Below are positions 25,479-28,526 of a stretch of DNA of 64,000 bases, one piece after another. The stretch is from Fictibacillus arsenicus (GTDB lineage Bacteria; Bacillota; Bacilli; Bacillales; Fictibacillaceae): assembly GCF_001642935.1 (NCBI RefSeq), contig NZ_CP016761.1, positions 1,302,001 through 1,366,000 on the forward strand, given 5' to 3'. How positions within the stretch are numbered: position 1 is the stretch's first letter; the number at the start of each line of letters is the position of its first letter. Below the pieces are notes generated by a model. It did no database searches and was not told the DNA's origin. It worked only from the letters and a program-made list of their open reading frames with translations. Made by a program: the position numbers and the translations under genes.

Positions 25479-26396
25479 ATGATAGAGTTTGATGTGATAA
25501 AGGCATCTGTTAAGGATAGTGAGGACATTCTGAGTCTTTTAAAGGAAGTCGCGTATTGGCTGAAGGACAAAGAGATCAACCAGTGGGGCTATTTATTACA
25601 GGGCGGAGACGATCGTGAGATTCTGCAGGCTATTGAGAACCAAGATACTTTCGTCGTTTTAAAAGACGATGTGATGGTTGGAACGTTCACACTTTCAACG
25701 ACACAAAGTGAATGGGATCAGCATATTTTTGGAGTTGATGATACGAATGATTCTTTATATATACATAGATTAGCAGTCTTTCCGAGATACATGGGTAAGG
25801 GAATCGGGAAAAGTATATTGGAATGGATCGAAGAAAACCATCAAAGCAAAAAGACTTATTTGAAGCTGGATTGTGTGGCGGACAATCCGAGGCTGAATCA
25901 ATTCTATCGTGAGAATGGTTTTGAATACTTGGGTGAGACGGACAAACATAGCAAGTATCAAAAAGTTTTGAATAGTAGTATAAATCAATCGTTTCGTTCA
26001 TCCTTAGAGGGTTTTAAAGAATCATGGAAACGATCTTCACTCGAAGATTTGAAAAAGTGGATTTCTGTAAATTACCAAGCACGCGAAATTAAAAATGGAG
26101 AAATTTTTGATTTTGGTTACGAAGAATCCATCAACGGCTGGGAGCAAGCATTTAACCAATTTCGTCAAAAAGATGTAGAGTGGCTCCTTACTGAAGATGG
26201 GATTATTCCTTTAAAAGAGAATGAAGTAATGGTCATACTGAGTGCTTCTTTAATAATTGAGGGAAAACCATTAGACACGGCGAATCTTTTCTTTCAAACA
26301 TTTAGGATGGAGCACGGTGATTGGCAGCTAGTAAGAAGCTATATTGAAGCGGGTTTACCAATGGAGAAAGTAAAAAGCTTAAGCATTTTCAAATAG
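25479..26396 (+). CDS. GNAT acetyltransferase fused to an NTF2/SnoaL-like domain
   Basis: Residues 1-165 are a GNAT domain with acetyl-CoA loop RYMGKGIGKSILEWIEE and the ending NQFYRENGFEYLG. Residues 170-305 start FKESWKRSSLEDLKKWISVNYQ and look like a DUF4440/NTF2-like barrel, usually a ligand-binding domain. The join falls at a smooth linker with no stop, so it is a true fusion and not two genes. GGAGGTGG precedes the ATG. Substrate unknown. Confidence 0.85.
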   Translation: MIEFDVIKASVKDSEDILSLLKEVAYWLKDKEINQWGYLLQGGDDREILQAIENQDTFVVLKDDVMVGTFTLSTTQSEWDQHIFGVDDTNDSLYIHRLAVFPRYMGKGIGKSILEWIEENHQSKKTYLKLDCVADNPRLNQFYRENGFEYLGETDKHSKYQKVLNSSINQSFRSSLEGFKESWKRSSLEDLKKWISVNYQAREIKNGEIFDFGYEESINGWEQAFNQFRQKDVEWLLTEDGIIPLKENEVMVILSASLIIEGKPLDTANLFFQTFRMEHGDWQLVRSYIEAGLPMEKVKSLSIFK

Positions 26397-26400
26397 ATTA

Positions 26401-26429
26401 TTGACAGAATTTTCAAATGCTACTATGAT
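26401..26429 (+). promoter_or_regulatory. Sigma-A promoter of the T-box-HIT-PP2C operon
   Basis: Consensus TTGACA (26401-26406), a 17-base spacer, and TATGAT (26424-26429). It begins five bases after the stop of the preceding gene. Confidence 0.85.
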
Positions 26430-26459
26430 TAGTAAAAGTTTTCCATAGAATAAACGCTT

Positions 26460-26691
26460 TGATTAGGAGTAGTAAGGATTTTCTGTTGTGTAGAGAGCTG
26501 CTGATTTGGTGAAAGGCGGCCGATAGATTTCCCGAACTCGCCTAGGAGCGGTCAGATTGAGATGTAGATCTGAACGGTTAACTCCCGTGAACGAGTCTTG
26601 AGAAGGTTTGTATTTTTTATAGCAAACTAAGAAGAGTGGTACCACGTTAGGAACAGCCTATCGTCTCTTTCCTGAGATGATGGGCTTTTTA
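26460..26691 (+). ncRNA. T-box riboswitch leader (probable Leu, CUC specifier)
   Basis: The leader shows an AGUA-type bulge (GGAGTAGTAAGG, about 26466), a stem I apical element (AGAGCTGCTGATTTGGTGAAA), and the loop-E strand GAA followed by CTC (26537-26539) as the likely specifier. The T-box itself is AAGAGTGGTACCACG (26632-26646), and a terminator stem AGCCTATCGTCTC/GAGATGATGGGCT follows with TTTTT (26655-26690). The bulge UGGU predicts a tRNA with discriminator A, which fits Leu (A73) and not Ser (G73). Expression of the genes downstream should rise when uncharged tRNA accumulates. Confidence 0.88.
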
Positions 26692-26716
26692 TATTTATAT
26701 AGGGGAGAGAGTGCAG

Positions 26717-27172
26717 ATGAGTGAGAGTTGTTTTATTTGCAATAAGCATAATGGGGATATTCAAACTTCAGGCGTTAAGATCTATGAGGATGAGTTCGTA
26801 TATGTCGGTCATATCGATAAGGGAGGCAAACCTTCTTATCTTGGTCATATAATGATTGATTTGAAGCGGCACGCTCCGTCTCTAGGTGATATGACGATGG
26901 ATGAGGCAAAAGCATTCGGTGTCATTATGGCAAGAGTGAGTAAAGCGTTAAAGGAGACAGAAAAGGCGGAGCACATCTATGCAGCTGTTTCTGGTAATTC
27001 GGTTCCGCATCTTCATATGCATATCATCCCGCGTTTTCCAAATACACCTGAAGCATACTGGGGTGCATGGGAAGTGTACGACTGGCCGGAAGCCCCGTTT
27101 GGCAAAAACCCTGAAATCATACAAGTGTGTGAGCAGATCAAGAGTTATTTGGAGGAGACCTCTTATGAGTGA
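26717..27172 (+). CDS. HIT-family hydrolase under T-box control
   Basis: A 151-residue histidine-triad protein. The triad is HLHMHIIPR (about residue 98) with the upstream N-S-V-P. HIT enzymes cleave nucleoside phosphoramidates, Ap4A-type dinucleotides or aminoacyl-adenylates, some of them side products of tRNA synthetases. ATG 26717 lies in the GGGGAGAGAG spacing; GTG 26711 belongs to that site. It is the first gene after the T-box and overlaps the PP2C-like gene by eight bases, so the two are translationally coupled. Confidence 0.9.
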   Translation: MSESCFICNKHNGDIQTSGVKIYEDEFVYVGHIDKGGKPSYLGHIMIDLKRHAPSLGDMTMDEAKAFGVIMARVSKALKETEKAEHIYAAVSGNSVPHLHMHIIPRFPNTPEAYWGAWEVYDWPEAPFGKNPEIIQVCEQIKSYLEETSYE

Positions 27173-27962
27173 ATTGAGCTGGGTAGGCAGTGACAAAAAC
27201 TTCGTTGATGAATTAGATGTAAGCTTGGTTGGAAATGTCGCAGTAGGGAGATTCGGCGGCAACTCGTCTGCTGGACAATACAAAAATGAAGACGGTTGTT
27301 TAGTTTGGGTAAATGAGAGCGGCGGGTGGGAATTTACCATGATTCTTGATGGCCACAAGACCGCTTCTAGTGTGGAGCTGGTGGTTGATCATTTTAACAA
27401 AAAAAAGGATGAGATTCAAAGGGTGTTAATGCTGCCGGCAGGTGAGGCGCTAAGAACAATGGACTCCCTTATATTAGATATTTTCCAGGCGCCGGATTTT
27501 ATGGAAGCTTGCCGAAAAACTACAGGAGAAACCGCTTGTATGATTGTTATCCGGAAAGAAAAATACTTGTGGTGGTTTTCAATAGGTGATTGCATCCTTC
27601 ACGTGTTTCATCCTGAATTGATCGCACTTGGTGAGAGGCAGCTGAACCAGAGAAGTTTTTACGAATGGGTGGGTGAGGTTAACACGTTTAAGATGACTGT
27701 ACCTTGTTACAGCACTGGCAAGAAAGAATTAAGACATGGTGAAAGCCTTATTTTTATGACAACAGATGGATTGACGGAATGTCCTGGTGTAACGTTTGCA
27801 AATCCTGAAGCGGTAGAAGGTACTTTTAATGGTGTGAGTGTTCCAGAAGCTGTCAGGGATTTATTAGAAGAAGTTAGAATAAAAGGTGTGAGGGACAGTA
27901 CGACGATTATCTCTTGGTCTGTTTTTATTGAGGAAACGGCCACTATGCCAAGTGATCTTTAA
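27165..27962 (+). CDS. PP2C-like serine/threonine phosphatase
   Basis: A 265-residue PP2C-fold protein. The order of motifs fits PPM phosphatases: NEDGCLVW, ILDGH (metal Asp), GETACMIVI, SIGDC, MTTDGLTE and a late DSTTIISW. The first acidic sites are kept, so metal binding is plausible. GGAGGAG seven bases before ATG 27165 lies within the end of the HIT gene. Co-expression with HIT under a T-box suggests a link to starvation or tRNA charging, which is inference. Target unknown. Confidence 0.82.
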   Translation: MSELSWVGSDKNFVDELDVSLVGNVAVGRFGGNSSAGQYKNEDGCLVWVNESGGWEFTMILDGHKTASSVELVVDHFNKKKDEIQRVLMLPAGEALRTMDSLILDIFQAPDFMEACRKTTGETACMIVIRKEKYLWWFSIGDCILHVFHPELIALGERQLNQRSFYEWVGEVNTFKMTVPCYSTGKKELRHGESLIFMTTDGLTECPGVTFANPEAVEGTFNGVSVPEAVRDLLEEVRIKGVRDSTTIISWSVFIEETATMPSDL

Positions 27963-28027: not shown

Positions 28028-28399
28028 TTACATGACGTCCATATAATGCTGCAGAACACGTGGCGGGATGAATTTGAGAGGCAAAGGTCGTAAGGATACG
28101 ATAATAGTTGGCGGCATAATAAGATCTTTTTGTGCTTGTTTAAAGTGGTTATACATGCCTTTTCCTGCGACTGAATTGGCGGAGTGTATGGTAATGCGAT
28201 TTGCGAAAAGTTTCTCGTCAATCATCATTTGAACGAGCATTGTGCCATTTCTTGTTTTACTTATCAGGTCATGATCTAATGACAGATGTTCGATGTCGAA
28301 CTTTCGCAAGAGTTCAATACATTCGTCGATGGTCTCGACAAACACATAACCATCTGGCGGACTCCGGTAATCATCCATAAATACACTGATTTTCTCCAT
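28028..28399 (-). CDS. Receiver-fold protein (cyclic-phosphate processing receiver type)
   Basis: A 123-residue protein of the stand-alone receiver-like type described as cyclic-phosphate processing. Signatures are VFMDDYRSPPDGYVFVET at the start, LSLDHDL in the middle and ITIHSANSVAGKGM near the end. ATG 28399 follows AAGGGAG; the upstream GTG 28408 lies within the site. No kinase is adjacent. It sits alone, reading against the PP2C gene. Confidence 0.8.
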   Translation of the reverse strand: MEKISVFMDDYRSPPDGYVFVETIDECIELLRKFDIEHLSLDHDLISKTRNGTMLVQMMIDEKLFANRITIHSANSVAGKGMYNHFKQAQKDLIMPPTIIVSLRPLPLKFIPPRVLQHYMDVM

Positions 28400-28526
28400 T
28401 TCTTGCACTCCCTTCGAAGAACGGAGGGTGACTAAGAAAAGTCGAAAGCCCTAAGTTTTTGTAATATAACTATCATAACATACTTTTGGTATTAATGAAA
28501 AAGCCACTTGCCGGGAAGGTGTAACA

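Follow-up and report, generated by a model that had tools for sequence, protein, structure and literature searches.

A conserved leucine-type T-box leader preceding a HIT hydrolase and PP2C-like phosphatase operon in Fictibacillus and related Bacilli

The window analyzed in this study, a 64-kb stretch of the Fictibacillus arsenicus genome, harbors a two-gene operon encoding a HIT-family hydrolase and a PP2C-like (PPM) phosphatase, which is preceded by a T-box leader and, on the sequence evidence, is very probably under leucine control. The reading that we favor, with moderate confidence, is that of a leucine-specific antitermination T-box which would switch on a two-enzyme operon whose HIT and PPM products act in one nucleotide pathway. 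Sequence analysis establishes the promoter and leader, the specifier and its matching tRNA, the layout of the operon, the catalytic residues and the conservation of this locus. The presence of a T-box is generally taken to indicate a gene for a synthetase, for biosynthesis or for uptake, and the specifier codon allows a function to be inferred where the gene is unknown. The leader RNA described here belongs to the known family, and its target is, as judged by comparative analysis, both unusual and conserved.

Architecture of the leader and operon

The features of the locus are presented in Table 1.

Table 1. Features of the T-box/HIT/PP2C locus and its neighbors (window coordinates)
Feature	Position	Strand	Details and basis
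GNAT gene	25479-26396		Upstream neighbor of operon
Sigma-A type promoter	26401-26429	+	TTGACA 26401-26406, 17-base spacer, TATGAT 26424-26429; read from sequence
T-box leader RNA, leucine type (RF00230)	26450-26671	+	cmscan and covariation across 23 homologues
AGUA bulge of stem I	26471-26474	+	Rfam alignment
Specifier codon CUC (Leu), followed by G-CC	26537-26539	+	Alignment of 23 leaders
UGGU of T-box bulge, matching A73 of tRNA-Leu	26637-26640	+	Rfam alignment; tRNA-Leu(GAG) end is A73-CCA
Intrinsic terminator, 13-bp stem and T run	26655-26690	+	Fold; conserved helix
HIT-family hydrolase gene, 151 aa	26717-27172	+	ATG 26717; Shine-Dalgarno 26701-26709; triad H98-x-H100-x-H102; Pfam HIT 47.1 bits
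PP2C-like (PPM) phosphatase gene, 265 aa	27165-27962	+	ATG 27165; 8-base overlap with HIT gene; Pfam PP2C_2 48.3 bits
cREC_REC (cyclic-phosphate processing receiver) gene	28028-28408	-	Downstream neighbor

A search with the RF00230 covariance model scored the leader at 116.3 bits (gathering score 93; E 4.7e-25; full model, 1-219), the sole match within the 64-kb window to reach the gathering score of any RNA family. The terminator stem (26655-26686), which folds at -21.9 kcal/mol and is followed by the T run, corresponds to a helix (helix 8) that is paired in 98.3% of cells across the aligned leaders, and the alternative antiterminator, which folds with a 7-base bulge, is formed from sequence overlapping this terminator, the two structures thus being mutually exclusive, as is characteristic of a T-box. 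The best hexamer pair within the 90 bases preceding each of 22 homologous leaders is likewise separated by 17 bases and scores 9-11 of 12, in a scan which permitted spacings of 16-18 and was performed without a shuffled control. Among the tRNA loci fetched from the host genome (4.06 Mb, one contig; closest named relatives in Fictibacillus, with 90-91% HIT identity), there is one tRNA-Leu(GAG), whose discriminator is A73 and whose 3′ end reads A73-CCA; the CUC specifier matches this tRNA and UGGU matches its A73, the correspondence on which membership of the T-box family is judged.

The initial annotation, which was made from the letters of the window, is borne out in each of these respects: the consensus sigma-A promoter is present as TTGACA-N17-TATGAT, all parts of the full T-box leader (AGUA, CUC, UGGU and terminator) were located, the covariance model that it proposed as a check scores over its cut-off, and the predicted Leu (GAG, A73) tRNA exists in the host. 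Its description of two coupled genes, neither of which is a synthetase, biosynthetic or transport gene, also holds, their overlap being accompanied by Pfam assignments to the HIT and PP2C families.

Residues H98, H100 and H102, together with H44, C5 and C8, are invariant across 28 aligned HIT sequences, and both the H-x-H-x-H-x-x triad and the HIT fold place the protein in the HIT superfamily. Fold matches of its AF2 model (pLDDT 82.8) span HinT, FHIT and Ap4A phosphorylase with no clear winner, and this Foldseek search does not assign a substrate class. The MccH motif ExxxxxHxHxKxx is absent, the third triad residue being His in 28/28 aligned sequences. Assignment of the second protein to the PPM/PP2C family is based on its fold and metal-binding Asp residues, with D62, D201 and D244 invariant across 30 aligned sequences; the AF2 model (pLDDT 92.0) finds its best PDB match in tPphA and resembles the protein phosphatases tPphA, SpoIIE and RsbX; protein Ser/Thr phosphatase activity is a prediction. 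At the PP2C motif DGH, the majority residues of the 30 sequences read DAH, and the protein from the window reads DGH. The host genome also encodes the Ap4A hydrolase YqeK (198.9 bits), a protein described in an excerpt of PMC10148737 as a Gram-positive Ap4A-degrading enzyme, and three more HIT-like matches.

A whole-genome search recovered 20 T-boxes at E <= 0.001, 18 of which were above the cut-off; as scoring covered 150 of the 225 first-look candidates, more than 20 may exist. The remaining 19 precede 14 tRNA synthetase genes (tyrS, serS, leuS, valS, pheS, argS, hisS, trpS, ileS, lysS, thrS, alaS, proS and glyS), four biosynthetic genes (aroC, cysE, proI and ilvB) and one transporter (a branched-chain amino acid carrier), as named by NCBIfam when the target is taken to be the first long reading frame downstream, with some frames truncated by the end of the locus and with sub-cut-off scores for valS and ileS. 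Among the 20 T-box targets found, the HIT operon alone lies outside charging, synthesis and transport.

Leucine specificity and covariation

The specifier reads CUC in 18, CUU in four and CUA in one of 23 aligned leaders; in the Bacillales sample described below, in which 33 loci have the T-box, it reads CUC in 28 and CUU in five, such that 56/56 readings are leucine codons when the two sets, which share species and both include the window, are combined. Variation is confined to the third codon position, the first two letters being fixed and the amino acid remaining leucine. According to an excerpt of PMC7778990, CUC accounts for 74% of leucine T-boxes in TBDB. UGGU is retained in 21 of the 23 aligned leaders, the exceptions being L042 and L087.

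Changes on both sides were observed in 23 of 48 named pairs across the 23 leaders, against a shuffled mean of 11.2, and were matched by 0/500 shuffles, although kinship among the sequences can by itself exceed such shuffles. In the same leaders, 97.6% of cells are paired in the true register, compared to 37.0-46.1% with the partner slid by 1-3 columns, a control which is flattered by the fact that the 48 pairs were drawn from 51 predicted by RNAalifold on the same alignment. On these figures, the leader is not a chance match.

Conservation of the T-box/HIT/PP2C arrangement

When a collection in which each species is represented by a single genome was scanned, 70 loci with a HIT relative were recovered. 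PP2C is located directly downstream in 66 of these (none in L032, L054, L063 and L069); for 64 of the 66, the offset of its aligned start from the HIT stop falls between -14 and +19 bases. In L080, where the HIT reading ends early, this distance is 95 bases, and in the Alkalihalobacterium locus L083 HIT and PP2C form a single fused reading frame, for which Pfam confirmed both domains. A T-box above the gathering score stands immediately before HIT in 22/70 loci, representing Fictibacillus, Rossellomorea, Heyndrickxia, Psychrobacillus, Planococcus, Neobacillus, Alkalihalobacterium, an uncultured Bacillaceae and Bacillus species; 48/70 have no T-box at that score, L080 offering just 288 bases of upstream sequence. 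Other flanking genes vary from genus to genus.

The Bacillales sample, which is less biased than this collection, comprised 397 genomes, 113 of which encode PP2C at E <= 1e-10; from 109 genomes, including the source genome (G000), 110 PP2C loci were read, four genomes with partial PP2C pieces being excluded and one genome supplying two loci, and the species of this sample overlap with those of the 70-locus set. HIT is adjacent in 59 of the 110 loci, and a T-box core, defined as 13 or more of 15 letters, is present upstream in 33 of these 59 and lacking in 26. Rfam searches of 20 of the 33 core-positive loci found a T-box in 20/20 at E <= 0.001 (17 over the cut-off), while the same searches of 20 of the 26 core-negative loci found none at E <= 0.01. 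In a class-wide sample, the HIT subfamily (E <= 1e-40) was detected in 13/398 genomes, and 5/13 of these loci, window included, carry, at the leader position, a T-box core with 14 or more of the 15 letters. Locus L282, from another order of the same class, combines a HIT protein of 44% identity with a diverged downstream PP2C and a 103.9-bit T-box with a CUC specifier. The genome survey that the initial annotation called for has therefore traced the T-box before HIT well beyond the source genome, in both collections and in L282. Leucine control is not essential to the HIT-PP2C pair, since 48/70 and 26/59 loci lack the T-box.

Several individual loci merit separate mention. L250/L281 (G046) is apparently a decaying copy, in which PP2C contains a stop and the T-box, which scores 61.2 bits, retains its CUC specifier. 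L052, whose record bears the title Chryseobacterium sp. ISL-80, groups within the HIT-PP2C clade of Bacillota and probably represents a mislabelled genome. Five HIT-PP2C loci (L036, L049, L053, L055 and L059) and the HIT locus L032, for which no PP2C was found, lie between genes which we take, by eye, to be rnr-like and smpB-like, and a tmRNA (Rfam RF00023) is located further downstream in these six loci.

Origin of the leader and alternative control

In a 48-row leader tree, into which 12 of the 23 HIT leaders were entered and from which the ilvB upstreams L271 and L272 (core score 12) were excluded, the 12 HIT leaders form one clade (99/95), and 11 leuS leaders (99/93) and eight ilvB leaders (100/99) each form a separate clade. 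Because it occupies a clade of its own, apart from those of leuS and ilvB, the HIT leader looks like an old dedicated switch; a recent copy of the leuS leader was considered and is not borne out by this topology. The T-box label requires six changes on a 66-row HIT-PP2C protein tree, at least four of which are forced by starred branches, and the two trees fit one leader class of old origin that was lost or transferred several times.

Operons lacking the T-box often carry the promoter element GAAAATTATACCAAT-N16-TATAAT (e.g., L040, L047, L063, L065, L084 and L090), which is apparently an alternative control of the same HIT-PP2C operon. The 15-base part of this element (<= 2 mismatches) is present in 20/48 T-box-less loci of the species collection and in 14/26 of the Bacillales sample, and in 0/226 control upstreams and 0/22 and 0/33 T-box loci. 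The exact full pattern gave eight matches in seven of eight genomes searched, two of them in one genome, and at about one match per genome no regulon is readable from these eight genomes. Boxes resembling the CodY consensus (<= 2 mismatches) occur in 7/48 T-box-less upstreams versus 4/226 control upstreams; despite this enrichment, CodY is not claimed as a replacement for the T-box, as the conserved stretch runs beyond the half-site. In L023, a Fictibacillus locus without a T-box, the GTGGGCTTATTATTTTT stretch before HIT resembles, by eye, the 3′ arm of the terminator, as if the leader had been lost by deletion.

The GNAT and cREC_REC genes each adjoin the operon in 10 loci, window included, the other nine all being Fictibacillus; neither was retained as an operon component, given their restriction to this genus and the operon's own promoter. 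Plasmid-borne spread was likewise set aside, as HIT was matched only at < 60% identity in 11 plasmid records and PP2C had no match.

The phosphatase in loci without an adjacent HIT gene

Of the 110 PP2C loci read from the Bacillales sample, 51 have no such HIT gene adjacent, adjacency being scored by tblastn (E <= 1e-5) over ~1.3-1.5 kb upstream, such that HIT may be encoded elsewhere in these genomes. A Nudix domain accompanies PP2C in 11 of the 51, fused in a single frame in eight (L188, L189, L194, L196, L200, L202, L206 and L213) and encoded by a separate upstream gene in three (L150, L151 and L153). A further partner, recognized by its Peptidase_S51 motif, lies upstream of PP2C in another set of 11/51 (L163, L185, L186, L198, L199, L201, L207, L210, L212, L216 and L217); Pfam confirmed NUDIX in 4/4 loci run and Peptidase_S51 in 1/1 (L163). 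A GNAT gene is found upstream of PP2C in L215 (Pfam) and L197 (by eye), and the corresponding gene in L164 matched no family. The majority of the 51 loci have no nucleotide hydrolase adjacent, and those of this majority outside the S51 and GNAT cases share no common partner. A T-box core of 13 or more was found in 0/51 of these loci versus 33/59 HIT-PP2C loci.

Either HIT or Nudix is joined to the same phosphatase, and each is seen fused to it, which speaks for a single pathway centered on a nucleotide compound. Judging from these loci, the leucine signal goes with HIT, and the S51 and lone PP2C cases are not covered by the nucleotide-pathway idea.

Proposed function and alternative explanations

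By analogy with the T-box family, charged tRNA-Leu would permit formation of the terminator, while uncharged tRNA-Leu(GAG) would pair through its anticodon with CUC and through its ACCA end with UGGU, stabilizing the antiterminator such that HIT and PP2C are co-produced. Either leucine shortage or any block of LeuRS would act as the trigger. HIT is presumed to cleave a phosphate compound linked to a nucleotide, for which a dinucleoside polyphosphate or an aminoacyl-nucleotide type molecule is the most likely candidate, a substrate class which we put forward tentatively, at somewhat less than even odds. The PPM phosphatase would act in the pathway of HIT, either on its product or on a protein signal, and that the two enzymes share a pathway is probable. 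A more speculative extension, which we regard as rather doubtful, is that the leader represents an old, dedicated third leucine T-box class in Bacilli, through which uncharged tRNA-Leu would call upon HIT and PPM to remove a toxic or signalling nucleotide arising from LeuRS failure (e.g., an adenylate-type inhibitor or a noncognate aminoacyl-nucleotide), with Nudix replacing HIT in some HIT-less lineages.

The initial annotation had suggested that the operon clears synthetase by-products, HIT destroying leucyl-AMP or Ap4A generated by LeuRS. HIT families do include leucyl-AMP and Ap4A type hydrolases, the Foldseek list contains Ap4A phosphorylases and FHIT, and the Nudix partner in 11 of the 51 HIT-less PP2C loci favors a nucleotide-hydrolase role; however, known enzymology implies that leucine shortage should lower leucyl-AMP, and YqeK and the three further HIT-like matches are present in the same genome. 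In simple starvation, removal of leucyl-AMP would be a less natural purpose because synthesis of this adenylate should fall, and YqeK is present for Ap4A; a clean-up role would be better suited to LeuRS inhibition or misactivation of other amino acids; overall, we judge it unlikely. A similar standing is accorded to the phosphatase being the real output, whereby leucine shortage would alter protein phosphorylation via PP2C, while HIT would assist it or sense a nucleotide. The conserved PPM active site, a fold shared with protein phosphatases and the 51 of 110 PP2C loci without adjacent HIT are all compatible with this explanation, but the T-box core occurs solely with HIT.

An inducible defense against adenylate-type LeuRS inhibitors, in which the poison would raise uncharged tRNA-Leu and thereby throw the switch, allowing HIT to cut the phosphoramide bond of the poison, is made attractive by certain precedents but seems decidedly unlikely. 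Excerpts from the literature describe MccH HIT hydrolases which cut processed microcin C and confer resistance (PMC7157772), and agrocin 84 as giving rise to TM84, a natural LeuRS inhibitor (PMC5059758), and the HIT-PP2C pair occupies different gene neighborhoods in different genera. The present HIT protein nevertheless retains H-x-H-x-H and the upstream H44, as opposed to the H-x-H-x-K reported for the MccH clade, an objection softened by the phosphoramidase activity which the same excerpt attributes to ordinary HinT enzymes (PMC7157772). Furthermore, no plasmid copy at 60% identity or more was found, and the role of PP2C is left unexplained. It is very improbable that the leader merely hitch-hiked here as the remnant of some other gene and exerts no useful regulation: a stranded T-box before cstA1 is suspected in Bacillus methanolicus in an excerpt of PMC4342826, and decaying leaders such as that of L250 beside its broken PP2C do exist, but the HIT leaders form their own clade across genera, retain the Leu specifier and a short distance to the start codon, and show conservation of promoter, T-box core and terminator. 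The leucine-specific switch acting on a shared nucleotide pathway is the explanation that we favor.

The HIT/PP2C T-box points to what may be a little-explored arm of the leucine-shortage response, with the specifier codon linking an uncharacterized enzyme pair to leucyl-tRNA charging in several genera. The operon offers a concrete starting point for learning what bacterial HIT enzymes other than HinT do physiologically; it is predicted to be switchable by leucine or LeuRS inhibitors, and the substrates of both enzymes are amenable to screening. If the proposal is true, a third leucine T-box class would drive a response other than charging, synthesis or uptake.

Comparison with known systems

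A term search of openly licensed literature did not find the HIT and phosphatase names in four T-box papers (PMC2494555, PMC7778990, PMC3766115 and PMC7583486), nor HIT or histidine triad, the terms searched there, in PMC4342826; in the excerpted part of PMC7438776, where T-box, riboswitch and histidine triad appear together, a histidine triad gene is listed in a sigma-factor table and not with a T-box. The HIT-PP2C leaders may well already be listed in the catalogues of Vitreschak 2008, Gutierrez-Preciado 2009 or TBDB.

The leader shares its core parts, Leu specifier, UGGU bulge and transcription terminator design with the leucine T-boxes of leuS and ilv-leu (RF00230), from which it differs in its HIT and PP2C targets and in its placement in a clade apart from the leuS and ilvB leaders. 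The hydrolase has the histidine triad and fold of the HIT superfamily (PF01230; HinT, FHIT and Ap4A phosphorylase) in common, whereas its subfamily was found in Bacilli, is operonic with PP2C in 66/70 loci and is partly T-box controlled. The HIT fold is also common to the MccH hydrolases, and the protein could act on aminoacyl-nucleotide phosphoramides; unlike the MccH clade, which an excerpt of PMC7157772 characterizes by H-x-H-x-K and the lack of the upstream His, it keeps H-x-H-x-H and H44. Finally, the phosphatase displays the fold and acidic metal residues of the PPM/PP2C family (PF13672; tPphA, Stp1, SpoIIE and RsbX), while being a small single-domain protein paired with HIT, some relatives of which are instead associated with Nudix or an S51 peptidase gene.
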